A stretch of DNA of 64,000 bases, from contig NZ_CP031012.1 in NCBI RefSeq assembly GCF_009497775.1, positions 806,001 to 870,000 of the forward strand, read 5' to 3'. The notes under the pieces were generated by a model that did not search any database, had not been told where the DNA came from, and was given only the letters and a program-made list of their open reading frames with translations. This document shows positions 16,026 to 31,092 of this stretch, in pieces; position 1 is the stretch's first letter; the number at the start of each line of letters is the position of its first letter. The stretch comes from Alcaligenes faecalis. Its GTDB lineage: Bacteria; Pseudomonadota; Gammaproteobacteria; Burkholderiales; Burkholderiaceae_B. The position numbers were made by a program, and so were the translations under genes.

Positions 16026-17174
16026 TTAGGGGCGGTGGCCCTCGTCCATCATGGAGCGATACCACTCGTGAAAGTGTTTCATGCCGTCTTCCAGCGGTGA
16101 CTGGTAGGGGCCCACTTCGCAGACTCCGCGCTCCATCAGGGCGCGGCGTCCAGCATCCATGCGCTCGGCAATCTCGTCATCCTCCACTGCCGTTTCCATA
16201 TAGGCGGCGCGTTGTGCTTCTACAAAGTCACGTTCGAAGGCCACGATGTCTTCGGGGTAGTAGAACTCCACCACATTCATGGTTTCCTGCGGCCCCTTGG
16301 GGTAGAGCGTGGAGAGCACCAGCACATGTGGATAGATCTCGATCATGTGGGTGGGGAAGTAGGTTACCCAGACGGCTCCGAAGTCCGGCGCTTCGCCCTG
16401 GCGGTAAGTCAGCAGATTGTCATGCCATTGGCGATAGGTGGGAGAGCCCGGATTGGCCAGGGCCTGATGCACGCCGACGCGCTGCAGGCTGTACCAGTCG
16501 CTGAACTCCCACTCCAGATCGTCACAGGTCACGAACTGACCCAGGCCAGGGTGGAAGGGGGCGACGTGATAGTCCTCCAGATAGACCTCGATAAAGGTCT
16601 TCCAGTTGTAGTTGCACTGGTGGATTTCGACGTGATCCAGCACATAGTCCTGAAAGTCGAACTCGGGGCGGCTGAACAGGGCGGCCATATCCTTGGCTGG
16701 ATCGCGCGGGCCTTCAAACAGCAGGCCATGGCAATCTCGCAAGGGATAGCGTTCCAGGTTCAGACAGGGCTTGTCCTTGAAGCGGGGTGCCGCCAGCAAG
16801 TCGCCTTGGGCGTTATAGGTCCAGTTGTGCAGGGGACAGACAATATGGCCACCCGTGCTGCTCAGGGAGCCGTGGCTGGCCTGATTGGGTTGGCCGGGCA
16901 TGTCGCCCAGCATCAGGGCCTGACGGTGTCTGCAGACGTTGGAGAGCAGTTCTACGCCATATTGGCTGCGTATCAGTGTACGGGCCGCGTTTTCCTGAAG
17001 CAGGGTGCGCCAGTCGCCGGGTTCGGGAACAAACTTTTCATTGCCGACGTACAAGGCCGACTGCTGAAAAATACGCTCTTGTTCGCGCTCGAACAGAGCG
17101 TGGTCAAAGTAGGCGCTAACAGGAAGCTGGGGGTGAGCAGGCACAAGACGTGCCATCTGACCTAGCTCGGTCAT
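16026..17174 (-). CDS. Rieske non-heme iron oxygenase, alpha-subunit type
   Basis: A 382-residue protein. The Rieske 2Fe-2S site is present as CRHRQ (Cys-x-His, about residues 80-84) and CPLHNW (Cys-x2-His, about 112-117). The mononuclear iron site is seen in EVYLEDYHVAPFHPG (about 195-209) with the usual Asp/His/His pattern. It belongs to the aromatic-ring-hydroxylating oxygenase alpha group, which also includes choline and carnitine monooxygenases, so the substrate is open. ATG at 17174 is chosen because GGAGGG sits 6 nt before it. An upstream in-frame start at 17228 lacks such a site. No reductase or ferredoxin gene is adjacent, so electrons must come from a partner encoded elsewhere. Confidence 0.87.
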   Translation of the reverse strand: MTELGQMARLVPAHPQLPVSAYFDHALFEREQERIFQQSALYVGNEKFVPEPGDWRTLLQENAARTLIRSQYGVELLSNVCRHRQALMLGDMPGQPNQASHGSLSSTGGHIVCPLHNWTYNAQGDLLAAPRFKDKPCLNLERYPLRDCHGLLFEGPRDPAKDMAALFSRPEFDFQDYVLDHVEIHQCNYNWKTFIEVYLEDYHVAPFHPGLGQFVTCDDLEWEFSDWYSLQRVGVHQALANPGSPTYRQWHDNLLTYRQGEAPDFGAVWVTYFPTHMIEIYPHVLVLSTLYPKGPQETMNVVEFYYPEDIVAFERDFVEAQRAAYMETAVEDDEIAERMDAGRRALMERGVCEVGPYQSPLEDGMKHFHEWYRSMMDEGHRP

Positions 17175-17373
17175 GATTCCCTCCGCATGGGTCAATAAGC
17201 CAGGCCCCAGGAGGGCGATCAGTGGCACTACTAGCCATCTCTGGCGCGAAGAAAAATCGGAACTGGCCGATTACCAAGGCGAAATTGTACCTGATCTATT
17301 AGCCGCCTAGCCGCATGGCGCCAGCCCTTCATGGTGTTTTTCGGGAGGCTTTTGGTATATGAAACAGCCAAGA

Positions 17374-18752: not shown

Positions 18753-19523
18753 CTAGGAGCTCAGGGGATCAAATCTGAGCGTGTCCTCTTCCAGCGTGAC
18801 CACGGCCGGTTTGTTGCGCAGTTGCGCATCCAGTCGGGTTTCAATAATGCGATACACACCGGCAATGGCGATCAGTTCCGGGTCCAGCTCGGTGGTGAAG
18901 ATGCGCGCTTTCGCATCGCCACGGGCACCGGCCATGGCCTTGCCGCGCAGGGGACCGTAGACGTGGATATTGCCATCGGCCACCACTTCCGCACCTTGGC
19001 TGACCGCACCGATCACGATCAGGTCCGTATGGCGGGCGTAGATACGCTGGCCGGAGCGCAACTGACGGTTGATGATGAGCGCAGCCGGAGCAATAGCGGG
19101 TGGCGGCGGGGCGGCTGCCGCGGGGGCTTCCTGCTGGGCAGCCTGCGACAACACAGGCACTTCCTTGTCCGGCGCAGCCTGTGCTTGTGGGCGGGCAGGC
19201 GGGTTGGACAGTTCGACGTGTGGCAAGCCACTGTCGATGGCGTTGTCGGCATGATTGGGGTGAGCAATGATGCCCACCGGATGCAGCTTGTGCTGACGCA
19301 GTGCGTCCGCCAGTGCGGCCCAGTCCACCGGCGCGTCAATGGCGCTGGCATCAATGACGACGGGCTCGTCCTCAAAGAAGGAGCCAGCGTCTTTCATGCG
19401 TTGAGCCAGTGCGGCTAACTGCTCGGCCGTGTCAGCCGAGCGCAGCACTACCCGTACGGCGTACAGTGTGGCGCTTTTGAAATCCAGGGCCTGTGGCCCT
19501 TTGGCATGAGTCTGATCGTTCAC
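18753..19523 (-). CDS. minC: Septum site-determining protein MinC
   Basis: A 256-residue protein with an N-terminal domain (residues 1 to about 110, including [20 protein letters not shown]), a Pro/Ala-rich linker (around 115-150) and a C-terminal beta-helix domain with [20 protein letters not shown] and [20 protein letters not shown]. The last two are typical of the MinD-binding, FtsZ-antagonising MinC_C. It starts with GTG at 19523, preceded by AAGG at 8 nt spacing. It is only 10 nt after glnS, so it is co-transcribed with the tRNA synthetase, while a terminator separates it from minDE. Confidence 0.95.
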
Positions 19524-19533
19524 GTTAATAGCC

Positions 19534-21291
19534 TTAGACCCAGGTGTCTTTCAGAGTCGTGGTGCGGTTAAGAACGGGTTTTTCCGGGGTGGAGTCCACA
19601 CGGTCCGCCACAAAGTAGCCCAGACGTTCAAACTGCCAGCGGGCATCGGGCGTGGCCTGGGTGCCGGGTTCCAGCCAACCTTGAATCACGCGCAGCGAGT
19701 TCGGGTTGATGTGCTCCAGGAAGTCCTGGTCGGCCGCATCGGGCTGAGGATGAGCAAAGAGACGGTCGTACAGACGAATCTCGGCTGCAATCGCGTGCTC
19801 GGCGCTGATCCAGGTGATATTGCCCTTGACCTTGACCGAGTCCGCACCGGGCGTGCCGCTCTTGGTGTCGGGCAGGTATTCAGCCAGCACCTGGGTGACA
19901 TTGCCTTGCTCGTCCTTGACGCAGCCGGTGCAACGCACCACATAGCCGTACTTCAGACGCACGGTATTGCCGGGGAACAGGCGGAAGTACTTTTTGGGTG
20001 GCTCTTCCTTGAAGTCCTCGCGCTCGATGTACAGGCGACCGGAGAAGGGGAACTCGCGTTGACCGGCTTCCGGATTGTGCGGATTGCGCGGTGCGTGGCA
20101 CAGCTCGCTTTGGCCTTCAGGGTAATTGGTAATGATCAGTTCGATCGGGTCCAGAATGGCAACGCTGCGGTCGGCCACCGGGTCCAGATCATCGCGCAGG
20201 GCTTGTTCCAGCAGGCTGTAGTCCACGTGCTGGGCTGCTTTGGACACACCCAGACGGTCCGTGAACAGACGAATGGCACCGGCGCTGTAGCCACGGCGGC
20301 GCAAACCGGCCAGGGTGGGCATGCGCGGATCATCCCAACCGGACACATGGTTTTCCTGAACCAACTGGCGCAGCTTGCGCTTGCTGGTCACCACATAGGA
20401 CAGGTTCAGACGCGAGAACTCGTACTGCTTGGGCAGCGGGTCGGATAACTGACCCAGCTCGACCAGGCGCTCCAGAATCCAATTGTAGAACGGGCGCTGG
20501 TCTTCAAATTCCAGGGTGCACAGGCTGTGGGTGATGCGCTCCAGCGCGTCTTCCACGGGGTGTGCCCAGCTGTACATGGGGTAGATGCACCATTTGTCGC
20601 CAGTGCGATGGTGTTCGGCGTGGCGGATACGGTACATGACCGGGTCGCGCATATTGATATTGGGCGAGCCCATATCAATCTTGGCACGCAGGGCCATGCT
20701 GCCATCGGGGTGCTTGCCGTCGCGCATTTCGCGCAGCAGCTTGATGGATTCTTCGGCAGAGCGGTCGCGCCAGCGCGAGTTCACGCCTTTTTCGGTCAGG
20801 GTGCCACGGTTGGTGCGCATTTCTTCAGCGCTTTGCTCGTCGACGTAGGCATAGCCTGCATTTACCAGCGCTTCAGCGAACTGGTACATATAGTCGAAGT
20901 AGTCGCTGGCAAAGTACAGGTTCTCTTCTTTCTTGAAGGTCCAGTCAAAGCCCAGCCATTTCACCATGTCGATAATGGCGTCCACGTATTCCTGTTCTTC
21001 TTTTTCAGGATTGGTGTCGTCAAAGCGCAGGTGGCAGGCACCCTGGTAGTCGCTGGCCAGTCCGAAGTTCAAACAGATACTTTTGGCGTGCCCAATGTGC
21101 AGATAGCCGTTGGGCTCGGGGGGGAAGCGCGTACGGATACGCGCGGCATCAACAGCCGCCCCTTCCTGGGTACTGGCCGGGCCTGGCTGACCGGCCCAGG
21201 ATTTTTGTGCGTAACGGCCAGCGCTCAGATCCTGGTCGATGATCGTGCGCAGAAAATTAGATACGGGAGCGGGAGTGGTGTCAGAGGTCAT
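19534..21291 (-). CDS. glnS: Glutaminyl-tRNA synthetase
   Basis: A 585-residue class I synthetase that attaches glutamine to tRNA-Gln in the cytoplasm. [20 protein letters not shown] (about residues 50-69) holds the HIGH motif. [12 protein letters not shown] and the KMSKS-equivalent VTSKRKL (about 298-304) are present, and the C-terminal anticodon-binding beta-barrels follow. An extension of about 25 residues precedes the usual GlnRS start ([14 protein letters not shown]), slightly longer than in E. coli. ATG at 21291 is chosen over an upstream in-frame start at 21339, because [20 protein letters not shown] is the family-like N terminus. minC follows after 10 nt. Confidence 0.97.
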
Positions 21292-21353
21292 ACACGTTTG
21301 AAATAAAGAAGCCGACAGACTAATCGGCCATTTTGCCACGTTCTTGTTTTAGA

Positions 21354-21367
21354 GGGGTATTTACCCC
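21354..21367. promoter_or_regulatory. Inverted repeat in the glnS / bd-like divergent promoter region
   Basis: GGGGTA-TT-TACCCC is a perfect 6-bp inverted repeat in the 161-nt gap between divergent glnS and the cytochrome bd-like operon. A further GGGGTA occurs at 21401-21406. It could be an operator, but no known regulator site is matched. Confidence 0.3.
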
Positions 21368-21452
21368 ATGAACGGGTTCTAAAAAATCAGGGGAGAACTT
21401 GGGGTAGTATGGTGGCGTTTGCAGGCCAATTCACCCTACACTAGCGCTCATT

Positions 21453-22793
21453 ATGACGCACTCCGCCCTTTCTCTGTCTCATGCCCAGTTTTTCCTTAGC
21501 CTGGGCTTCATGCTGCTGTTTCTGGCTCTGGAGCTGGGACTGGCTTGGGTGCTGCTGTATTTCAAGGTCAGAACCTTCGGCAACAATGCGACGGCCTGGA
21601 TGGGGGCGTACCGTTTTTGGGTGCGTCTGTTCGCGCTGGCGTTTATTTTAAGCTTTGCCGCGTCCATGCCCGTGCTGATTCAGTTTGGCAGTGTCTGGCC
21701 GGGTCTGATGGAGCAGGTGGGTGATGTCATCGGCCCCATGCTGGCCGCCTCCATGCTGTCCCTGTTCATTTTCAAATCCTGCTTTCTGGGCGTGATGCTG
21801 TTTGCCCAGCGCATGCTCTCCAATCTGGTTCATACCCTGGTGGTGCTGATGGTGGCCCTGGGTGTGACCGTCACTGCATTCTGGCTGGTGGCGATTGTGG
21901 CCTGGATGCAAGTGCCGACCGGCGTGGATGTTATTGAAGGCCATTACGTGGTGATGGAATGGCTGGATGTGCTCAGCACACCGGCCTTGCCCTGGTATGC
22001 CGGTCTTTTATTTGCAGGCAGTTTGCTGACGGTGGCCTTTTTCATGCTGGGTGTGACTTGCGCCCAGACCATGCAAAAGCCGGTTACCGATCAGGAACGC
22101 CTGGCTTTTCGCAGCGCCTTGTTCCTGGGTGTGGTGGCCTGGCTGGCTTTGGTGTCCGCCGTTGTAGGTAATGGTTTCATGACTGCCGAGCATCAGCCTG
22201 CCAAGGCAGCGGCAGCGGCGGCGTATTGGGAAAGCGGCTCGCAGCCTGATCTGATTCTGGTGGCGGCACCCTCTGCCATGCAGGACAGTGTTCTGGGTGT
22301 GTTGCGCTGGTCCCATGCGGGTGGACGATGGCTGGGTCGCAATGACAGCGGCATTCTGATGGGCCTGGATCAGTTTTCCGACGCCATGCCGCCCGTCACC
22401 TTGACCTTCTGGTCCTTCCGCGTGGCTGTGCTGGCCGGGGCCTTGATGCTCTTCCTGCTTCTGTGGGTCTTGTTGCGTACCCGTCGTTATGGCCTGGACC
22501 CGCACTCTCTTTCTTATAGAGAGCGTCAGATCATGGTGGCCGCCTCGGTGCTGGGCTGGATCATGTTGCTGGGCGGTGCAGCCTACGTCTTGTTGGGCTT
22601 TCTGCCTTATCTGGTAGGTAACGATATTCAGGCTGTGCAAGTGCAAAGTACCGAAAGCGTCTTTACCGTTGGGCTGGGTTTGCTCTGTTACGGCCTGGTC
22701 TACGTCTTGTGCATGATTGGTTTTTTCCAGAAGTTGCGACATGCCGTTCGTTTTGGTGTGGTACCGATCGCGCGTCATCGGGGGCGGGCATGA
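21453..22793 (+). CDS. Cytochrome bd subunit I (CydA)-like protein lacking all heme ligands
   Basis: A 446-residue integral membrane protein. By eye it aligns without gaps to E. coli CydA over residues 1-113 (SHAQF near the N terminus, RFWVRLF, LIQFGSVW, QVGDVIGP). It aligns again at ALGVTVTAFWLVAIVAWMQ, in FWSFR and at the C-terminal GWIML...LPYLVG block. The residues that bind heme are replaced: H19 is Met20, E99 is Ser100, E107 is Lys108, H186 is Leu, M393 is Ala (FWSFRVAV), E445 is Leu and GRQPW reads GFLPY. In the short quinol loop K252 is kept but E257 is Ala. The protein is shorter than CydA (about 520). It should therefore not form the b558/b595/d heme centres and is unlikely to reduce oxygen. 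It overlaps the CydB-like gene by 4 nt. Function unknown. Confidence 0.9.
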   Translation: MTHSALSLSHAQFFLSLGFMLLFLALELGLAWVLLYFKVRTFGNNATAWMGAYRFWVRLFALAFILSFAASMPVLIQFGSVWPGLMEQVGDVIGPMLAASMLSLFIFKSCFLGVMLFAQRMLSNLVHTLVVLMVALGVTVTAFWLVAIVAWMQVPTGVDVIEGHYVVMEWLDVLSTPALPWYAGLLFAGSLLTVAFFMLGVTCAQTMQKPVTDQERLAFRSALFLGVVAWLALVSAVVGNGFMTAEHQPAKAAAAAAYWESGSQPDLILVAAPSAMQDSVLGVLRWSHAGGRWLGRNDSGILMGLDQFSDAMPPVTLTFWSFRVAVLAGALMLFLLLWVLLRTRRYGLDPHSLSYRERQIMVAASVLGWIMLLGGAAYVLLGFLPYLVGNDIQAVQVQSTESVFTVGLGLLCYGLVYVLCMIGFFQKLRHAVRFGVVPIARHRGRA

Positions 22794-23839
22794 TTGATTC
22801 TTTTGCAAATGCGCTGGGCCTGGGTGCCCATGATCCGGCGTTCTGGATGCCCTTGGCGTTTCTGGCCCTGTTCTTTCTGATTATTGTGGCCGGTACGGTT
22901 CTGGACGGCTTCGATATTGGCGTGGGTTGCTTGTCCTTGCTGGCTCCGGATTCCTTGCGTCCCCGCATGTTGTCCTTGTTGAGCCCATGGCGCGACGCCA
23001 ACGAGTTCTGGCTGTTTCTGGGCCTGGGCTTGTTTGTTTGCGCTTTCCCCAAAGCCTGGGGGGCGGTGATGGGCGGGCTGTATGGGCCTTTATGTGCTTT
23101 GGGTGTCGGCGTCTTTGCCCGTTCCGTATCCTTTGAGTTCCGCCTGCGTGCGCCGGTAGAGCGTCAGTCCCGCTGGCAAATGGGTTTTGCCCTGGGCTCC
23201 TGGTTGACGGCGTTCTCCCACGGTGTCTTGCTGGCTCAGGTCGTGGTGGGTTTCCAAAGCGATTCAGGCTATATCTGGTTCTCTATTTTCATGGGCTTTT
23301 GCGCCATCGCCGCGTACTGCTTGCTGGGGGCCAGCTGGCTCATCATGCGCGAGGCAGGCGAGCTGCGCGCCCGTGCGGTGAACTGGGGCCGTCGTTCGGT
23401 GCGCTGGTTTGCAGCTGGTGCCGTAGGTGTGTCCGTCGTGCTGGCTTTTGTAAATGCCGGCGTGCTGCTGAAATGGAGTGATGGACCGTACTGGGGACTG
23501 GTGCTGTTTTTGTGGGCCTTGATTCTTAGCTGCTTTGTGTCGATTGAGATGAGCCTGCAGCGCATGATCAACAGCAGCTATCGCACAACAACCTTGCCTT
23601 TTTTGCTGACTCTGTTCGTGATGGTTTCCGTCATGGCGGGGCTGGCGTTCAGTTTCTTCCCCTATCTGATTCTGGACGAGATGACGATCTGGGACGCCGC
23701 TGCCGGGGTGCCTGCCCTGAGCCTGATCCTGTCAGCGATTGTGATTACCTTGCCCATCGTCTTGATTTTCAACGTGTGGGTGTATTGGCGCATGTTTGGA
23801 TTGTCCCGCCCACCTTTGCCGCCCAGCTTTAAAGGCTGA
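22790..23839 (+). CDS. Cytochrome bd subunit II (CydB)-like protein
   Basis: A 349-residue membrane protein that starts in an ATGA overlap with the CydA-like gene. IIVAGTVLDGFDIGVGCLSL (about residues 25-44), LSPWRDANEFWLFLGLGLFV and FARSVSFEFR match the CydB family. The C terminus DEMTIWDAAAG...NVWVYWRMFG is also the usual ending. CydB has no heme ligands of its own in E. coli; it pairs with CydA and helps form the proton path. The acidic residues DGFD and RDAN are kept, so this partner is better preserved than the subunit I protein. The complex may retain proton or ion conduction without redox chemistry, which is inference. Confidence 0.9.
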   Translation: MIDSFANALGLGAHDPAFWMPLAFLALFFLIIVAGTVLDGFDIGVGCLSLLAPDSLRPRMLSLLSPWRDANEFWLFLGLGLFVCAFPKAWGAVMGGLYGPLCALGVGVFARSVSFEFRLRAPVERQSRWQMGFALGSWLTAFSHGVLLAQVVVGFQSDSGYIWFSIFMGFCAIAAYCLLGASWLIMREAGELRARAVNWGRRSVRWFAAGAVGVSVVLAFVNAGVLLKWSDGPYWGLVLFLWALILSCFVSIEMSLQRMINSSYRTTTLPFLLTLFVMVSVMAGLAFSFFPYLILDEMTIWDAAAGVPALSLILSAIVITLPIVLIFNVWVYWRMFGLSRPPLPPSFKG

Positions 23840-23847
23840 CCTTTTTT

Positions 23848-25620
23848 ATGATTGCCCATTCCGTGCTGTCGATGCGCAAGCGTCTGCAGGGTTTCAAGTG
23901 GTTGTCTGATATGCCCGCCATGCTGGCGTGGGCAGTCTTGGCCGGCATTTTGGGAGCCTTGGCTACGCTAGCCTTTCATCAGGGCATGCGCTTTGTGCAG
24001 CAAGTGGTCACGGGGCAGCACGGCGGCATCGTTGCGGTAACGGAAAGCCTGCCCTGGTACATGCGCCTCCTGTTTCCTACCCTGGGCGGTTTGTGCGCCG
24101 GTATCCTGCTGTGGCTGGCCGGGCGTCTGCCCTCGGGAAGTAACTCGGACTATATGGAAGCCGTGGCCATTGGCGACGGCCGCTTGTCCATCCGCCAGGG
24201 CTTGCTGCGATCCTTGTCCTCCCTGATGACGGTAGCGTCGGGCGGTTCGATTGGTCGGGAAGGGGCGATGGTGCATTTGGCCTCCTTGTCCGCTTCTGCG
24301 ATAGGCCGTTTCACCTTGTTCGGTGAAGCCCGCCTGCGTTTGCTGGTGGCCTGTGGTGCCGCTGCCGGTGTGGCTGCGGCTTATGGGGCCCCGATTGCCG
24401 GTGCCGTATTTGTGGCCGAGATTGTGCTGGGCACCATGACCATGAGTAGCTTCGGCCCCCTGTTGATGGCGGCTGTCAGTGCTCACCTGACCATGCGCAT
24501 GCTGGGTGGCTATCACGCCCCCTATGAAATGACGAATGTTCAGGCCGTTGCGGGTTGGGACATCTTGCCCTTTCTGGTTCTGGGTGTGCTGATTGGTCTG
24601 GCTGCACCCGCTTTCCTGAAATTGCTGAATTTGTTTCGTACCCTGTTCAAGCGTACCGGCCTGGGTTTGCCTTTGCGTCTGGCTTTGGGTGGCTTGCTGC
24701 TGGGACTGTTGCTGATCCTCATGCCGCGCGTGGCGGGTAATGGCTTCAGCGTGGTGTCCTCCATGCTGCACAGTGACTGGGCCTGGTACAGCGTACTGCT
24801 TATTCTGGTGTTCAAGGTTCTGGCTACAGGGTTGACGGTGGGCTCGGGCGCAGTCGGTGGTGTGTTTACCCCTGCCATCTTTGTGGGAGCGGCCTTTGGC
24901 ACCCTGTTTGGTCAACTGACCTTGTTGATTCTGCCGGGTCTGGATTTGCCTTTGTACCTGTTCACGCTGGTGGGCATGGGTGCGTTCCTGGGGGCTGCGA
25001 CCAGTGCGCCCTTCATGGCCATTCTGATGTTGTTTGAAATGACCTTGAGCTATCAACTGGTACTGCCGCTGATCGTGGCCTGTGTCATGGCTTATTTTGT
25101 GTCGCGTGGTGTGGCTGAAGTGGCCATGTATGAAGTTACCTTGGTGCGCGAGCGCGATGCCTTGCTGCGTCACAAGCTGCGTCATACCACCCTGGCTGAG
25201 CTGGTCCGTCCGGCGGACACCGTGGTCAGCACCACCACCCAAATGCGCGATGCCTTGCAGATGTTCCTGGATTACCCCGTGCGCTATTTGTATGTGGTGA
25301 ACGAGGAGCAGGTTTATCAAGGTGTGATTGCCCAGCCCGACCTGACGCGTATGTTGCTGGACGACAACGCTGCCCAGGAACGTGTGGTGGGGGATATTTT
25401 GCGTATGGATTTCGTCAAGACGCTCTACCCGAACATGAGTCTGGACGAGGCTCAGGAACACTTCGTGAGCTTTGCCGGAGAGCGCCTGCCGGTATTGAAT
25501 GGTGACGGCTCGGGTCGCCTGATTGGTGTAGTCTATAAGTCTGCTGTGCTGGAAAAATACTCCGCCATCAAACGCTCCCTGGATGCGAGCGGCGAAGTGA
25601 TGCTGGATGCCCGGCGCTAA
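23848..25620 (+). CDS. ClC-family chloride channel/transporter with CBS domains
   Basis: A 590-residue ClC protein with about ten hydrophobic segments and a cytoplasmic C-terminal CBS pair (about residues 440-575). The gating-glutamate motif is GGSIGREGAMVHLA (about 131-144), with Ala where most ClCs have Pro after Glu-Gly. GSGAVGGVFTPAIFVG (about 332-347) is the second selectivity motif. In APIAGAVFVAEIVLG the position matching the internal proton glutamate of E. coli ClcA (E203) appears to be Ile, so proton coupling may differ; this rests on an alignment by eye. The gene begins 8 nt after the CydB-like stop and belongs to the same probable operon. Chloride or fluoride cannot be told apart firmly, although the CBS tail favours chloride. 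Confidence 0.92.
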   Translation: MIAHSVLSMRKRLQGFKWLSDMPAMLAWAVLAGILGALATLAFHQGMRFVQQVVTGQHGGIVAVTESLPWYMRLLFPTLGGLCAGILLWLAGRLPSGSNSDYMEAVAIGDGRLSIRQGLLRSLSSLMTVASGGSIGREGAMVHLASLSASAIGRFTLFGEARLRLLVACGAAAGVAAAYGAPIAGAVFVAEIVLGTMTMSSFGPLLMAAVSAHLTMRMLGGYHAPYEMTNVQAVAGWDILPFLVLGVLIGLAAPAFLKLLNLFRTLFKRTGLGLPLRLALGGLLLGLLLILMPRVAGNGFSVVSSMLHSDWAWYSVLLILVFKVLATGLTVGSGAVGGVFTPAIFVGAAFGTLFGQLTLLILPGLDLPLYLFTLVGMGAFLGAATSAPFMAILMLFEMTLSYQLVLPLIVACVMAYFVSRGVAEVAMYEVTLVRERDALLRHKLRHTTLAELVRPADTVVSTTTQMRDALQMFLDYPVRYLYVVNEEQVYQGVIAQPDLTRMLLDDNAAQERVVGDILRMDFVKTLYPNMSLDEAQEHFVSFAGERLPVLNGDGSGRLIGVVYKSAVLEKYSAIKRSLDASGEVMLDARR

Positions 25621-25641
25621 ACTCTTTTTGTGACATAAATC

Positions 25642-26778
25642 ATGCGTACAAAAGCTTGCCAGCGAGGCTTGGCAGGCGGGCTGATTGTCGGTCTTGCCAT
25701 GCTGTTCGCTGTTCCATTGGCCACCGCTCAAAACCGTGTCGGATTGGAAAACCTGTCCGCCACGCGTGTGTATGGTGTGGATGAGGCTCAGGCGATTCCT
25801 CCTCAGGAGCTTCCCCCGGTAGAGCCGTTTTTTGATGCCTCGCAATGGCATCGCCAGGGCGACCAGGGTTTGGTCAACCCAGCCACGTCCATTGGTTTTT
25901 CTTTTTCTGATTTCAGCCTGAGCGGTTCCAGTACCGCCAGTCTGGCTCGCTCCATTCAATATAGTCAGCAGTCCTCGCCGATCTGGAGTGCACGCTGGTT
26001 GAGCAGTGCGCCCGATCAGGTCTGGCAGTTTGGCGAGCGCAATTGGCGCTACGTCAATGAAGATGGTTTGCAGTTAACCTTGGGCAATGACACGGTAACC
26101 GCCCCGGATTGGGCGCGGCCTGTGGAACTGGGCGGGATCAATATTACCCAGCAGTTTGAACAAGGCCCGGCCGGGCCCTGGCGCTATGCCTTGGCCGTGG
26201 GTGCGCTGGACATAACAGGCAAGCAGGACAACGGTGATCTGGTGTACGGATCGTCGGCGAGCAGTCTGATGGTCAGTACCGATATCACCAGTCGCACCAG
26301 CATTGATACCCAAATGGAAAGTGCGCGTGATTTTGGCTTGACCGGGGTGGGTGCCACTTATCGCTCGCCGGATTTTGGCGTGTGGCAGGCCAGTGTGGCC
26401 AAAGCTTCCCATTCCGTGGGACAGGGGTGGCGTTATCAGGCCGCCTATGGCCTGGATGTGCTGGACGATTTGCATCTGCAATGGCAGGGCGAGCGGTACC
26501 AGGACAACTTCCTGGATTTAAGCCGTTATCAGGGCATGAAGGTCGACGCGGCCAGCAGCCGGCAGGTGGTGGGTTTGTCCATGCCCCTGCGCCGCTGGGG
26601 TGAAGTAAAGACGCAGTACGAGGTGCAGCAGGTAGTTGCCGGGGGGGAGAACCGCTACCTTGGGGTCACGCAGCAGTTCTGGTACAGTCCCCACCTTAGG
26701 GTGGGTTTGCAAGCTCGCCGTCATCTGGAAAGTCGTCAGTCGAACATCGCGCTGCGTTTTTCTATTCCGATTTTTTAA
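25642..26778 (+). CDS. Probable outer-membrane beta-barrel protein of unknown family
   Basis: A 378-residue protein with a Sec signal peptide (LIVGLAMLFAVPLATAQ, cleavage near residue 29). The mature part has many alternating polar/hydrophobic strands, for example WRYQAAYGLDVLDDLHLQWQ and RRWGEVKTQYEVQQ. It ends NIALRFSIPIF, with the terminal phenylalanine that the BAM complex recognises in outer-membrane proteins. There are no cysteines and no plug or TonB box. I do not recognise the family. It lies 21 nt after the ClC gene and 9 nt before recQ in the same direction, so it is probably co-expressed with the bd-like/ClC genes. Confidence 0.72.
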   Translation: MRTKACQRGLAGGLIVGLAMLFAVPLATAQNRVGLENLSATRVYGVDEAQAIPPQELPPVEPFFDASQWHRQGDQGLVNPATSIGFSFSDFSLSGSSTASLARSIQYSQQSSPIWSARWLSSAPDQVWQFGERNWRYVNEDGLQLTLGNDTVTAPDWARPVELGGINITQQFEQGPAGPWRYALAVGALDITGKQDNGDLVYGSSASSLMVSTDITSRTSIDTQMESARDFGLTGVGATYRSPDFGVWQASVAKASHSVGQGWRYQAAYGLDVLDDLHLQWQGERYQDNFLDLSRYQGMKVDAASSRQVVGLSMPLRRWGEVKTQYEVQQVVAGGENRYLGVTQQFWYSPHLRVGLQARRHLESRQSNIALRFSIPIF

Positions 26779-26787
26779 GCAGGCGGC

Positions 26788-28614
26788 ATGGCCCAGTCAG
26801 CACTTGAGGTTCTTCAGGAAGTTTTTGGTTATGACAGTTTTCGTGGCTCTCAGCACGAGATTATCGAGACCCTGATCCAAGGCGGTGACGCCCTGGTCTT
26901 GATGCCCACGGGCGGCGGCAAGTCGCTGTGTTACCAGATTCCTGCTTTGGTGCGACCCGGCACCGGCGTGGTCGTGTCCCCCCTGATTGCCTTGATGCAG
27001 GATCAGGTGGATGCCCTCAATGAGCTGGGTGTTAATGCTGCCTATCTGAACTCCACCCAGGATTGGCAAACCGCCCGCGAGGTCGAGCGCGAGTTTCTGA
27101 CGGGGCAGCTGGATCTGCTCTATGTGGCTCCCGAGCGTTTGCTGACAGACCGTTGCCTGGATTTGCTGGCACGCGGCCAGATTTCCCTGTTTGCCATTGA
27201 CGAAGCCCACTGCGTATCGCAATGGGGCCACGACTTCCGCCCGGAATACCTGGGCCTGGATTTGCTGGCCCAGCGCTGGCCGGGAGTGCCACGGGTTGCC
27301 TTGACGGCGACTGCCACTCAGTTGACGCGGGTAGAAATTGCCCAGCGCCTGAAGCTGGAAGAGGCCCGGCATTTTGTCGCCAGTTTTGATCGCCCTAATA
27401 TTTGCTATCGCATCATCGAAAAGAACGAGGTGCGCAAGCAGCTCTTGAGCTTCATTCAGGAAGAGCACTCCGGTGATGCGGGGATTGTGTATTGCCTGTC
27501 GCGCTCGCGCGTGGAAGATACCGCCGAGTTTCTGTGCAAGAACGGTATCCATGCCTTGCCCTACCATGCAGGGCTGGATGCGCAGCAACGCGCCATCAAC
27601 CAGGCCCGCTTTCTTCGAGAAGAAGGGGTGGTCATGGTGGCAACCATTGCCTTTGGCATGGGTGTCAATAAACCAGATGTGCGCTTTGTAGCCCACATTG
27701 ACCTGCCCAAATCGGTGGAGGGGTATTACCAGGAAACCGGGCGGGCAGGGCGCGATGGTGAAGTGGCCACGGCCTGGCTGGCCTATGGTTTGCAAGACGT
27801 GGTGCAATTGCACCGCATGATTAACCAGTCGCAAGGCGATGCGGCACACCGACGCCAGCAAGGCCAGGCGCTGGATGCCATGTTGGGCCTGTGCGAAACC
27901 ATTTCCTGCCGCCGCCAGCGCTTGTTGGCGTATTTCGATCAGCAGATCGAGCCTTGCGGTAACTGCGATACCTGCCTGGAAGCGCCGGAAGCCTGGGATG
28001 GTACGGTGGCAGCGCAGAAAATGCTCTCTACAATCTATAGATTGTGGCGCGAGCGCGGTCAGCGCTTCGGGGCCGGACACCTGATCGACATCCTGCTGGG
28101 CAAGCTGACGGACCGTGTCAAAGAGCACGAGCATGACAAGCTCACCGTCTTTGGCGTGGGCAAGGATCTGACCGATCAAGCCTGGCGTGGGGTACTGCGC
28201 CAGTTGCTGGCACATAGTCTGGTCACGGTGGACCTGGAAGGGTACGGCACCTTGTTGCTGACCGAGGCCAGCCGCGAAGTGCTCAAAGGGGAACGCACTT
28301 TAATGTTGCGGCGCGAAACCGTAACACGCGGACCCGCTGCACACCGAGTAAAAGGTCAGGCGCCTGCCGGACCTGCGCTGGAGCCCGATCAGCAGCGACG
28401 ATTCGAGGCTTTGCGTGCCTGGCGTGCCGCGACCGCCCGCGAACATGGCGTCCCCGCCTATGTCATTTTCCATGATGCCACTTTGCGTGAAGTGGCCATC
28501 CGCTGCCCCAGCTCAGAGGCTGATCTGGAGCCGATTACAGGCATAGGTGTACGCAAAAGAGAGGCCTATGGCGAGGCTTTGCTGCGCTGCGTTCAAGAGT
28601 TCCAGACGCAATAG
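26788..28614 (+). CDS. recQ: ATP-dependent DNA helicase RecQ
   Basis: A 608-residue helicase of normal RecQ length. [20 protein letters not shown] is the RecQ motif 0 region, [15 protein letters not shown] (about residues 40-54) the Walker A, and [19 protein letters not shown] (about 136-154) the DEAH box with the aromatic-rich loop. Helicase motif VI reads [10 protein letters not shown] (about 315-324). The zinc subdomain has Cys in SCRRQRLL and CGNCDTC (about 372-396), followed by winged-helix and HRDC domains (the latter from about 530). RecQ unwinds 3'-5' in recombination repair and fork processing. Its place at the end of the bd-like/ClC run suggests co-transcription without obvious functional relation. 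Confidence 0.96.
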
Positions 28615-28686
28615 GAAATTGTTAGCAGAGCAAAGATTGGTTGCATTTTTATGCGCTGAATCTGCTCGGCAGTCACAAAACGACTA

Positions 28687-28715
28687 TTCGCTCAATCCGC
28701 TATATGTAGTAGAAT
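28687..28715 (+). promoter_or_regulatory. Candidate nrdA promoter
   Basis: TTCGCT (28687-28692) and TAGAAT (28710-28715) are separated by 17 nt upstream of nrdA. The -10 is good (5 of 6) and the -35 weak (3 of 6). The first NrdR box overlaps the spacer and -10, which suits repression by NrdR. Confidence 0.45.
28697..28712 (+). promoter_or_regulatory. NrdR box 1
   Basis: CCGCTATATGTAGTAG matches the NrdR consensus acaCwAtATaTwGtgt at 11 of 16 positions, including the CTATAT core. It begins exactly 31 bp before box 2, i.e. three helical turns, the usual spacing of paired NrdR sites. Confidence 0.65.
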
Positions 28716-28727
28716 GACGCCAATATC

Positions 28728-28743
28728 ACACTATATATGGTGT
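28728..28743 (+). promoter_or_regulatory. NrdR box 2
   Basis: ACACTATATATGGTGT matches the NrdR consensus acaCwAtATaTwGtgt at 15 of 16 positions. NrdR is the ATP/dATP-sensing repressor of ribonucleotide reductase genes. Confidence 0.85.
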
Positions 28744-28812
28744 GCATCAAATGACGCTGGCGGCTGCAAAAGCCGCGTCTTCCGTCAATCACCATCGATT
28801 TCCGAGACTGAA

Positions 28813-31092
28813 ATGCAATCAACCGAACAGTTAATGGTCACTAAGCGAGATGGCCGTACAGAACCTATTAACCTCGACAAGATTCACCGAGTGGTTGATT
28901 GGGCCGCTGAAGGTCTGAGTAATGTGTCCGTCTCTCAAGTAGAGCTGCGCTCTCACATTCAGTTCTACAACGGCATTCGCACTAGCGACATCCACGAAAC
29001 CATCATCAAGTCGGCTGCGGATCTGATCTCCGAAGATACGCCTGACTACCAATATCTGGCTGCCCGTCTGGCGATTTTCCATCTGCGCAAAATCGCTTTT
29101 GGTCAGTTTGAACCCCCCAGCCTGTTCGATCACGTGACCTTGCAAACCAAGGAAGGTCGCTACGATCCGCATCTGTTGCAAGACTACACGCGCGCTGAAT
29201 TCGATGAGCTGGATGCTCATCTGGATCACTGGCGTGACATGAATTTCTCCTACGGTGCCGTCAAGCAGCTGGAAGGCAAGTACCTGATTCAGAACCGCGT
29301 GACCAAGCGCATCTACGAAAGCCCCCAGTTCCTGTACATGCTGGTGGCCATGTGTCTGTTCGCCCGTTACCCTGCCGACACACGTCTGAGCTTCATCAAG
29401 CGCTTTTACGACGCCGTATCGCAATTCAAGATTTCCTTGCCCACGCCCATCATGGCTGGCGTGCGCACACCCACCCGTCAGTTCAGCTCTTGCGTGCTGA
29501 TCGAATGTGACGACAGCCTGGACAGCATCAACGCCACGACCAGCGCCATTGTTCGTTACGTGTCACAGCGTGCCGGTATCGGTATCAACGGTGGCCGCAT
29601 TCGCGCCGTAGGCAGCGAGATTCGTGGTGGTGAAGCACAACACACGGGCTGCCTGCCGTTCTTCAAGATGTTCCAGGCGGCGGTGAAGTCGTGCTCGCAA
29701 GGTGGTGTGCGCGGTGGTGCTGCAACCTTGTTCTACCCCATGTGGCACCTGGAAGTGGAAACACTGCTGGTCCTCAAGAACAACCGTGGTGTGGAAGAAA
29801 ACCGTATCCGTCATCTGGACTACGGCGTTCAGATCAACCGCTTGCTGTACCAACGTCTGATCAAGGGCAGCCACATCACGCTGTTCTCGCCGCATGACGT
29901 GCCCGGCCTGTACGACGCGTTCTTCGCAGACCAGGACGAGTTCGAGCGTCTGTACGAAATGTACGAGCAGGATCCTGCCATCCGCAAGCGCAGCCTGCCT
30001 GCCGTGGAGCTGTTCTCCCTGCTGATGCAAGAGCGTGCCAGCACCGGCCGTATCTACATTCAGAACGTGGACCACTGCAATACGCACAGCCCATTCCAGG
30101 CCGACCGCGCTCCTGTGCGCCAGTCCAACCTGTGCATGGAAATCGCTCTGCCTACCAAGCCTTTGAACGATCTGAACGATGCCGAAGGCGAAATCGCCCT
30201 GTGCACGCTGTCGGCGTTCAACCTGGGCGCTCTGGAGTCTCTGGACGAGCTGGACGGCCTGGCTGAACTGATTGTTCGTGCTCTGGATGCTTTGCTGGAC
30301 TACCAGGATTACCCGGTCAAGGCCGCGCTGAATGCAACCAACAAGCGTCGTTCCCTGGGCGTTGGCGTCATCAACTACGCTTACTACCTGGCCAAGAACG
30401 GCACCCGCTACTCCGATCCCGCTGCCTTGGGCCTGACCCACCGCACGTTTGAAGCCATCCAGTACTACCTGTTGAAGGCTTCGGTGCAGTTGTCGCGTGA
30501 ATACGGTCCTTGCGATGCCTTCGACGAAACGACGTATGCCGCTGGTTTGCTGCCTACCGACACCTACAAGAAAGATGTGGACGGTATCTGCAACGAGCCG
30601 CTGCACCTGGATTGGGAAGCCCTGCGTGCTGACATCGTCAAGCACGGTCTGCGCAACTCGACCCTGACAGCCCTGATGCCTTCGGAAACCTCCAGTCAGA
30701 TCGCCAATGCCACCAACGGTATTGAGCCTCCGCGTGGCCTGGTGTCCGTCAAGCAGTCCAAGGACGGTATCTTGCGTCAGGTGGTGCCTGAATTTGAAAA
30801 ATATAAGGATCAGTACGAATTGCTGTGGCAAATGCCTGGCAACGACGACTACCTGAAGTTGGTTGGCGTGATGCAGAAGTTTGTTGACCAGTCGATCTCT
30901 GCGAACACCAACTATGACCCACAGCGGTTCGAGGGTGGTCGCGTACCGATGAAGCAACTGCTCAAGGACCTGCTGCTGGCCTACAAATACGGTGTGAAGA
31001 CCTTGTACTACCACAACACCCGCGACGGTGCCGATGATTCGCATGGCGAAGTAGAGGACGACGGTTGCGCAGGCGGCGCGTGCAAGATCTAA
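28813..31092 (+). CDS. nrdA: Class Ia ribonucleoside-diphosphate reductase, alpha subunit
   Basis: A 759-residue enzyme that reduces ribonucleoside diphosphates to deoxy forms. The N terminus (about residues 7-95, LMVTKRDGRTEPINLDKI onward) is the ATP-cone that senses dATP/ATP. Active-site cysteines are visible in FSSCVLIECDD (about residue 225) and NLCMEIALPTKP (about 440). The C-terminal redox pair lies in DDGCAGGACKI. ATG at 28813 is chosen because MQSTEQLMVTKRDGR is the family-like start; an upstream in-frame ATG at 28714 would lie within the operator region. It is controlled by the tandem NrdR boxes and followed 18 nt later by nrdB. Confidence 0.97.
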   Translation: MQSTEQLMVTKRDGRTEPINLDKIHRVVDWAAEGLSNVSVSQVELRSHIQFYNGIRTSDIHETIIKSAADLISEDTPDYQYLAARLAIFHLRKIAFGQFEPPSLFDHVTLQTKEGRYDPHLLQDYTRAEFDELDAHLDHWRDMNFSYGAVKQLEGKYLIQNRVTKRIYESPQFLYMLVAMCLFARYPADTRLSFIKRFYDAVSQFKISLPTPIMAGVRTPTRQFSSCVLIECDDSLDSINATTSAIVRYVSQRAGIGINGGRIRAVGSEIRGGEAQHTGCLPFFKMFQAAVKSCSQGGVRGGAATLFYPMWHLEVETLLVLKNNRGVEENRIRHLDYGVQINRLLYQRLIKGSHITLFSPHDVPGLYDAFFADQDEFERLYEMYEQDPAIRKRSLPAVELFSLLMQERASTGRIYIQNVDHCNTHSPFQADRAPVRQSNLCMEIALPTKPLNDLNDAEGEIALCTLSAFNLGALESLDELDGLAELIVRALDALLDYQDYPVKAALNATNKRRSLGVGVINYAYYLAKNGTRYSDPAALGLTHRTFEAIQYYLLKASVQLSREYGPCDAFDETTYAAGLLPTDTYKKDVDGICNEPLHLDWEALRADIVKHGLRNSTLTALMPSETSSQIANATNGIEPPRGLVSVKQSKDGILRQVVPEFEKYKDQYELLWQMPGNDDYLKLVGVMQKFVDQSISANTNYDPQRFEGGRVPMKQLLKDLLLAYKYGVKTLYYHNTRDGADDSHGEVEDDGCAGGACKI

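Follow-up and report, generated by a model that had tools for sequence, protein, structure and literature searches.

A cytochrome bd-like gene pair of Alcaligenes faecalis that has lost its heme ligands and appears to have rewired its proton channel

Eight oxidase loci were described in Bordetella bronchiseptica RB50 by McKay et al. (2024), the bd-type ones being cydAB1, cydAB3 (BB4012-4011) and cioAB (PMC11257404). There, cydAB3 is treated as a high-affinity bd oxidase, in a main text that does not use the word 'ligand' (PMC11257404), and the list of oxidases in a review likewise gives it as bd-type (PMC13367067). In cytochrome bd-I of Escherichia coli, structural accounts place CydA K53, K57, E74, E107 and D119 and CydB D58, D105, K109 and Y379 in the cytoplasmic proton channel (PMC6853902, PMC13189123).

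Here we describe a related gene pair, called cydA'B' below, from Alcaligenes faecalis (assembly GCF_009497775.1, a single contig of 4.16 Mb, NZ_CP031012.1). The window, that is, the whole stretch of DNA that was analysed, is 64,000 nucleotides long (contig positions 806,001 to 870,000, forward strand), and coordinates are window positions unless another locus is named. Subunit I of the pair has lost every heme ligand, and residues of the former proton channel are exchanged in both subunits. To judge from their sequences, the pair and its homologues are a single, vertically inherited family under selection. A role as bd oxidase is very unlikely, because every member read has lost both the b558 histidine and the proton donor E107. 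We think it likely that CydA'B' descends from a cytochrome bd oxidase of the cyanide-insensitive (CIO) type but is itself no oxidase and holds little or no heme; it would carry a sealed channel and a ligand site and serve as a membrane accessory or sensor.

Loss of the heme ligands in CydA'

The two genes are arranged as follows.

21453..22793, + strand: cydA', CydA-like subunit I of 446 aa, ATG start, without heme ligands
22790..23839, + strand: cydB', CydB-like subunit II of 349 aa; ATGA overlap with cydA'

CydA' matches PF01654 at 253 bits and CydB' matches PF02322 at 197 bits, both above the Pfam cut-offs and with the models covered almost end to end; the scores of the pair against the NCBIfam bd models are far under their cut-offs. 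No Pfam family besides PF01654 matched CydA' at E<=1, the NrfD family included. In an AlphaFold model of CydA' alone the bd fold of subunit I is predicted to be retained, and the next-best fold match of that model is NrfD-like, a match that canonical bd subunits might give as well. The closest named CydA' records, at 94-97% identity, come from Alcaligenes sp. SORT26, A. pakistanensis and A. faecalis AU14. One record named Providencia rettgeri (P0001) is 96% identical to the window CydA' and is probably mislabelled or contaminated.

A sequence-only reading of this stretch had claimed an open frame of about 446 codons with an ATGA overlap to a CydB-like gene and the replacement of every heme ligand, and alignment (MAFFT) to E. 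coli K-12 CydA from NC_000913 bears this out. The substitutions that it listed, GRQPW to GFLPY among them, are all correct. Mapped by that alignment, the ligand, proton-donor and kept positions are:

21510..21512, + strand: M20, at heme ligand H19 of E. coli CydA
21750..21752, + strand: S100, at E99; E kept in 0 of 269 rows
21774..21776, + strand: K108, at E107, the terminal proton donor in bd oxidases
22005..22007, + strand: L185, at heme b558 ligand H186; H kept in 0 of 230 homologues
22203..22205, + strand: K251, at K252 of the Q-loop, kept; K in 224 and R in 30 of 269 rows
22419..22421, + strand: R323, at R391, kept; R in 269 of 269 rows
22425..22427, + strand: A325, at heme b558 ligand M393
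22590..22592, + strand: L380, at heme b595 ligand E445

Further changes in the window protein are E257 to A256, R448 to F383, Q449 to L384 and W441 to A376. Ligands at shifted positions, a hazard that the earlier reading had raised, are excluded over residues 6 to about 156, because phmmer alignments to E. coli CydA chains are gap-free there. A register-shift artefact was rejected, the alignments to chains in the Protein Data Bank (PDB) and the MAFFT alignment being in agreement.

The loss extends across the family. Among 230 homologues listed by two protein searches (the best 120 of each), the number of canonical residues kept, of six, is 0 in 202, 1 in 24, 2 in 2 and 3 in 2; the E107 position holds K in 228, R in 1 and a gap in 1, and E99 is kept in none (1 gap). 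In the 269 family rows, which are not independent in that P proteins and loci partly overlap, no row retains H186, E99 or E107 (the latter two have one gap each), and R448 survives in 8 and W441 in 97. We compared these with ligand-complete relatives that we take to be CIO-type from their short Q-loop; the set comprises 28 CydA and 27 CydB sequences (locus L113 gave no CydB), and H19, H186, M393, E445, E99 and E107 are all kept in 28 of 28. The family alignment revealed no newly conserved histidine as a replacement heme ligand. H127, present in 264 of 269 family rows, is not such a replacement, because it is equally conserved in the ligand-complete CIO-type copies (28 of 28).

Two cysteines are newly conserved: C110 of CydA', in a KSC motif (21780..21782, + strand; 262 of 269), and C171 of CydB' (38 of 38, a count made without the CydB of locus L055, which the channel counts of 39 include). 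Both are rare in CIO-type copies. Residues 433-446 of CydA' form a conserved C-terminal tail, YGVVPVARRRGRA or YGVVPVRKxGG, that is not in the CIO-type copies compared.

Rewired proton channel and the order of losses

Eight of the E. coli channel positions can be aligned here, CydB Y379 being the one that cannot. The exchanged residues, together with one beside a channel residue, are:

21624..21626, + strand: CydA' R58, at K57; R in 267 of 269 (2 gaps); CIO-type K in 26 and R in 2 of 28
21675..21677, + strand: CydA' L75, at E74; L in 251 of 269; CIO-type S in 28 of 28
21810..21812, + strand: CydA' R120, at D119, the channel entrance; R in 262 of 269; CIO-type G in 10 and S in 6 of 28, others fewer
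22991..22993, + strand: CydB' R68, at W57, next to the kept D58 (D69); R in 39 of 39; CIO-type W in 27 of 27
23135..23137, + strand: CydB' E116, at D105; E in 39 of 39; CIO-type D in 26 of 27
23147..23149, + strand: CydB' R120, at K109; R in 39 of 39; CIO-type K in 27 of 27

At the E107 position the family has K in 266 of 269 rows (2 R, 1 gap) and the CIO-type set E in 28 of 28, and the channel residue CydB D58 is kept in 39 of 39. If a switch is a position where one residue reaches at least 90% in the family and that same residue stays below 20% in CIO-type copies, then 6 of the 8 alignable channel sites are switches, as are 37 of 745 positions elsewhere (Fisher p 6e-7).

In a tree of 65 CydA sequences, built with the six ligand columns removed and with L051 left out for its truncated start, the 49 rows with K or R at position 107 form one clade (bootstrap/SH-like approximate likelihood ratio test, SH-aLRT, 100/100). 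The clade stands on its own, on a long stem (0.59), beside the Bordetella-type CIO pair, which is its sister when the tree is rooted on other CIO-type rows (100/99); rooting on E. coli bd-I gives the same sister relation (SH-aLRT 92). E107, E99 and H186 change once each on this tree, H19 and E445 three times each and M393 seven times, and the losses of H186 and E99 and the exchange of E107 for Lys map to the stem. The first losses therefore appear to have been those of the proton donor and of the heme ligand on the quinol side, with parallel erosion of the other ligands afterwards.

Living intermediates fit between these stages. L055 keeps H19, M393, E445, R448, Q449 and W441; P0203 and P0230 keep H19, E445 and M393; P0220 and L080 keep H19 and E445; and L079 and L084 keep H19. 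The CydA channel changes are present in all eight intermediates examined and the CydB changes in all four that have a CydB, so that the rewiring preceded the last ligand losses. The family-wide nature of the loss, the partly ligated intermediates, the CydB' switches W57R, D105E and K109R (39 of 39) and a channel rewired before the last losses are all additions to the sequence-only reading.

Distribution, selection and genomic setting

The homologues found by the protein searches (best 120 each) are labelled Alcaligenes, Pusillimonas, Parapusillimonas, Candidimonas, Allopusillimonas, Achromobacter, Orrella and Bordetella, the last including B. petrii, B. holmesii, B. avium, B. trematum, B. bronchialis and others. 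At least 146 of 250 genomes of the window's GTDB family have a CydA match of at least 438 bits, a line that exceeds the best ligand-complete copy among the matches listed, which reach down to 426 bits (L078, 436.1 bits). Of 43 genus representatives, 32 have a CydA of the K107 type, 31 by residues and G038 by score only. Residues were read as well as scores because a divergent member, L144 (345 bits), falls in the CIO score range. This protein, encoded in G031 by an open frame of 585 aa, is of the K107 type, has W in place of H186 and E at the positions of E445 and D119, and may represent a second subtype.

Outside the family we sampled the order (399 genomes, E<=1e-60) and the class (369 genomes, E<=1e-70). 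No match above 420 bits was found in these samples outside the window's GTDB family, and residues were read in 110 of the 126 listed order matches and in all 80 further listed class matches. None of these 190 is heme-less; they all keep E99, E107, H186, H19 and M393, and E445 where present (the contig fragment L205 ends before it). Among the samples examined, the heme-less clade is seen only in the window's GTDB family; more divergent heme-less forms could lie below the cut-offs or in unsampled genomes.

The sequence-only reading took subunit I for a maintained protein and not a decaying pseudogene, and selection and synteny agree with it. By pairwise Nei-Gojobori estimates, the ratio of nonsynonymous to synonymous substitution rates (dN/dS) of cydA' is 0.035-0.051 in four Alcaligenes species pairs, 0.116 in the Achromobacter-type pair L048/L049 and 0.086 in the Bordetella-type pair L074/L083, a range of 0.035-0.116 overall. 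The corresponding values are 0.008-0.076 for cydB', which for Alcaligenes pairs take in 27 codons upstream of its ATG, and 0.022-0.078 for glnS. In the window/L046 pair dS is saturated for both cydA' and cydB', and the pairs L052/L053, L063/L065 and L072/L077 were left out. Forty stretches, most of 15 kb, were compared, 38 with a K107-type pair and 2 (L061, L078) with a ligand-complete CIO-type pair, and glnS is the divergent upstream neighbour of cydA' in all 38 K107-type loci. With this synteny, the dN/dS values and the near-invariant residues, a pseudogene was rejected.

Around the pair, the window holds:

19534..21339 (start provisional), - strand: glnS, divergent neighbour, fixed across family loci
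21436..21443, + strand: octamer CTACACTA, -10-like box, 9 nt before the cydA' ATG
23848..25620, + strand: ClcB-like chloride channel gene (NF002505, 713 bits), a neighbour and not an obligate partner

The name glnS is presumed from similarity. Beyond it lies minC, which in L055 is on the opposite side. The gene after cydB' varies, being clcB, recQ or a two-component system. ClcB was rejected as a fixed partner (in 15 of 38 family stretches, directly after cydB' in 4 of 38). An EnvZ/OmpR-like two-component system stands convergent with cydB' in many relatives (at 3545-5778 of L063 by NCBIfam, in others by first residues), and it too was rejected as a fixed partner, the best kinase match in the window genome being 32% identical over residues 175-486. 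Neither is an obligate partner, because clcB is adjacent in only 4 of 38 stretches and the kinase has no close copy in the Alcaligenes genome. Among the labelled neighbours of family loci we saw no electron-transfer genes, most open reading frames (ORFs) in one neighbour listing being unannotated. An Rfam scan of 19000-29000 gave zero matches. Farther out, a 378-aa ORF at 25642-26778 has no match in Pfam or NCBIfam; its dN/dS between Alcaligenes species is 0.042-0.059, slightly faster than its neighbours. A Rieske-type oxygenase-like protein at 16026-17228, adjoining minE, matches a glycine betaine monooxygenase model weakly (72.5 bits, cut-off 670).

The octamer has the family consensus CTA[AC]ACT[AT] and lies 5-14 nt ahead of a cydA' start codon in 33 of 38 loci, with 36 occurrences over the whole set of 40 loci (1.19 Mb, both strands counted). 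Its resemblance to a -10 element suggests a promoter with a near-leaderless start, and a sigma-70 consensus promoter scan of 21200-23950 found none. The pair is vertically inherited, under selection and probably expressed. Between glnS and cydA', a palindrome, GGGGTATTTACCCC (21354-21367), is a possible operator; it is intact in L005 and L007 and broken in L006.

The cydAB3 locus of B. bronchiseptica is very probably an orthologue of the heme-less pair, judged by size and by elimination, with bd-I and CIO accounted for. Its published deletion starts 41 nt upstream, ends at nt 994 of cydB3 and removes 2373 bp (PMC11257404). Assuming a 4-nt overlap, cydA3 is 1342 nt long, one base off 446 codons plus a stop; named Bordetella homologues have 444-447 aa, and E. 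coli bd-I CydA has 522 aa. A strain with cyd3 alone could reportedly not be obtained, nor could strains with cco, cio, ctaD2 or cyo2 alone (PMC11257404); the failure of the cyd3-only strain is weak evidence, because four other loci behaved alike. A strain without five of the loci, one of them cyd3, is reported to grow poorly in 5% CO2 (PMC11257404), which is no more than a lead.

A cofactor-free descendant of an oxidase

We propose a model of two steps. The sequences show the first, taken once, on the stem: E107 became Lys, E99 and H186 were lost, and interface channel residues were exchanged in both subunits. Oxygen reduction would have ended here, with neither a quinol-oxidising heme b558 nor a terminal proton donor, leaving the remaining hemes dispensable. 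In the second step, later and several times over, H19, E445 and M393 disappeared as well. What is still strongly constrained would be the rebuilt interface network of Lys/Arg with Asp/Glu, which may seal the former proton channel and form a fixed ligand site. The ligand might be an anion, or a quinone or lipid in the vacated heme clefts, much as ubiquinone-8 is described at heme positions of E. coli CydB (PMC6853902). On this view the pair would no longer be a respiratory enzyme but an accessory or sensor in the membrane, a complex that by its residues should bind no heme and reduce no oxygen. Database calls of cydA'B' as an oxidase are probably wrong.

Several observations weigh against this model. 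Among the 230 listed homologues, M393 is kept in 24, H19 in 5 and E445 in 5, and heme binding may persist in some members, as L055, P0203 and P0230 keep three ligands; the later ligand changes could also include regains. The kept K252 and R391 could mark a residual quinone site or be only structural. A K107-type CydA is missing from 11 of 43 genus representatives. The channel enrichment, strong as it appears, is not decisive: E107K was already known when the channel residues were collected, and three of the exchanges (K57R, K109R and D105E) are conservative. For the probable Bordetella orthologue, the reported single cydAB3 deletion had no growth phenotype, cyd3 transcripts were low and 7 of 14 B. 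pertussis strains had a broken cyd3 locus (PMC11257404), and any function is conditional for these three reasons.

A bolder version of the same history is tentative, and we would not bet on it: an oxygen reductase would have turned into a cofactor-free device, its channel rewired first and its hemes shed after, with a Lys/Arg-rich conduit at the interface for binding or conducting an anion, or for sensing membrane energy or the state of the quinone. Were it true, it would be a new functional class in the cytochrome bd superfamily, with living intermediates, across the family including Bordetella and Achromobacter.

One rival reading sees in the former channel a positively charged conduit for the passage or gating of an anion such as chloride, bicarbonate or nitrite, perhaps together with ClcB in Alcaligenes. 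E107K, D119R, K57R and, in CydB, W57R and K109R are near-invariant and make the channel Lys/Arg-rich, and clcB is directly downstream in the window. We find the idea doubtful, however, as a sealed salt-bridge network accounts for the same residues and clcB is in only 15 of 38 family stretches, next to cydB' in 4.

That CydA'B' is still a heme protein, through other ligands such as M20, C110 or H127 or through a reduced heme set in the intermediates, is rather unlikely. C110 (262 of 269) and H127 (264 of 269) are conserved, and L055, P0203, P0220 and P0230 keep H19 and E445, all but P0220 also M393. However, H186, E99 and E107 are kept in no row of 269 (1 gap each for E99 and E107), H127 is equally conserved in ligand-complete oxidases (28 of 28), and R448 and W441 remain in only 8 and 97 of 269 rows.

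The sequence-only reading had suggested that the complex might regulate a true oxidase and had asked whether the genome holds a separate canonical cydAB. It does: a bd-I pair with all ligands present lies elsewhere in the same genome (C1:3597484-3600159), and in many of the genus representatives another high-scoring CydA is found. This would suit a role in regulating or assembling a bd or CIO oxidase, for instance by subunit exchange. Yet in G006, G042 and G128, each 99% complete, the heme-less CydA is the sole CydA, so that an obligate partnership with a bd oxidase is excluded, and the suggestion, thus weakened, seems improbable to us. We hold it just as improbable that CydA'B' is NrfD-like, a cofactor-free, quinone-interacting and ion-translocating subunit that works with some redox partner. 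The fold match that prompts the comparison might be given by canonical bd subunits too, only PF01654 matched at E<=1 in Pfam, and the labelled neighbours, in loci where one listing leaves most ORFs unannotated, include no electron-transfer genes. A non-functional relic drifting to loss, as the broken B. pertussis loci and the silent B. bronchiseptica deletion might suggest (PMC11257404), is hardly credible given a dN/dS of 0.035-0.116, near-invariant new residues, conserved synteny and box, and no internal stop in any listed match of the 250-genome family search.

If CydA'B' is indeed a non-oxidase descendant of a CIO, one of the loci taken for terminal oxidases in Alcaligenaceae genomes is something else, and respiratory capacity is over-counted there; the published Bordetella oxidase inventory is apparently affected too. 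The family would also offer a gradation found in nature, which runs from the full oxidase over forms with some ligands to forms without any, for testing the order in which oxygen chemistry, proton delivery and hemes were lost, and it poses the question of what role a bd fold can have without heme.

A literature search for a heme-less CydA and for the Bordetella, Alcaligenes and Achromobacter loci, mainly in openly accessible papers, found no report of ligand loss in this clade in the texts consulted. Cofactor-free membrane subunits are known in the NrfD-like proteins ActC and PsrC, which have two four-helix bundles and interact with quinone (PMC8076601). CydA' would share their cofactor-free state, without an NrfD sequence match and with no known redox partner genes seen. 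Diverged CydA paralogues within the bd superfamily also have a precedent in the archaeal CydAA', reportedly treated by Murali et al. in 2021, in which two CydA-type paralogues are thought to pair. CydAA' of the OR-N type are described as oxygen reductases or putative ones (PMC10839748, PMC12342949). Their partner is CydA-type, whereas CydA' keeps a CydB-type (PF02322) partner and appears heme-less. Compared with E. coli bd-I and bd-II (CydAB, AppCB), CydA'B' is without heme ligands and without GRQPW, and CydA' has 446 aa against 522; in B. bronchiseptica, a cydX is reported for the cyd1 operon (PMC11257404). By tree, the nearest ligand-complete relatives are CioAB, the CIO-type cytochrome bd, with which the pair shares two-subunit architecture, gene order and the short Q-loop. 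The CIO-type copies keep all six canonical residues, whereas CydA'B' has lost them and its proton channel appears rewired.

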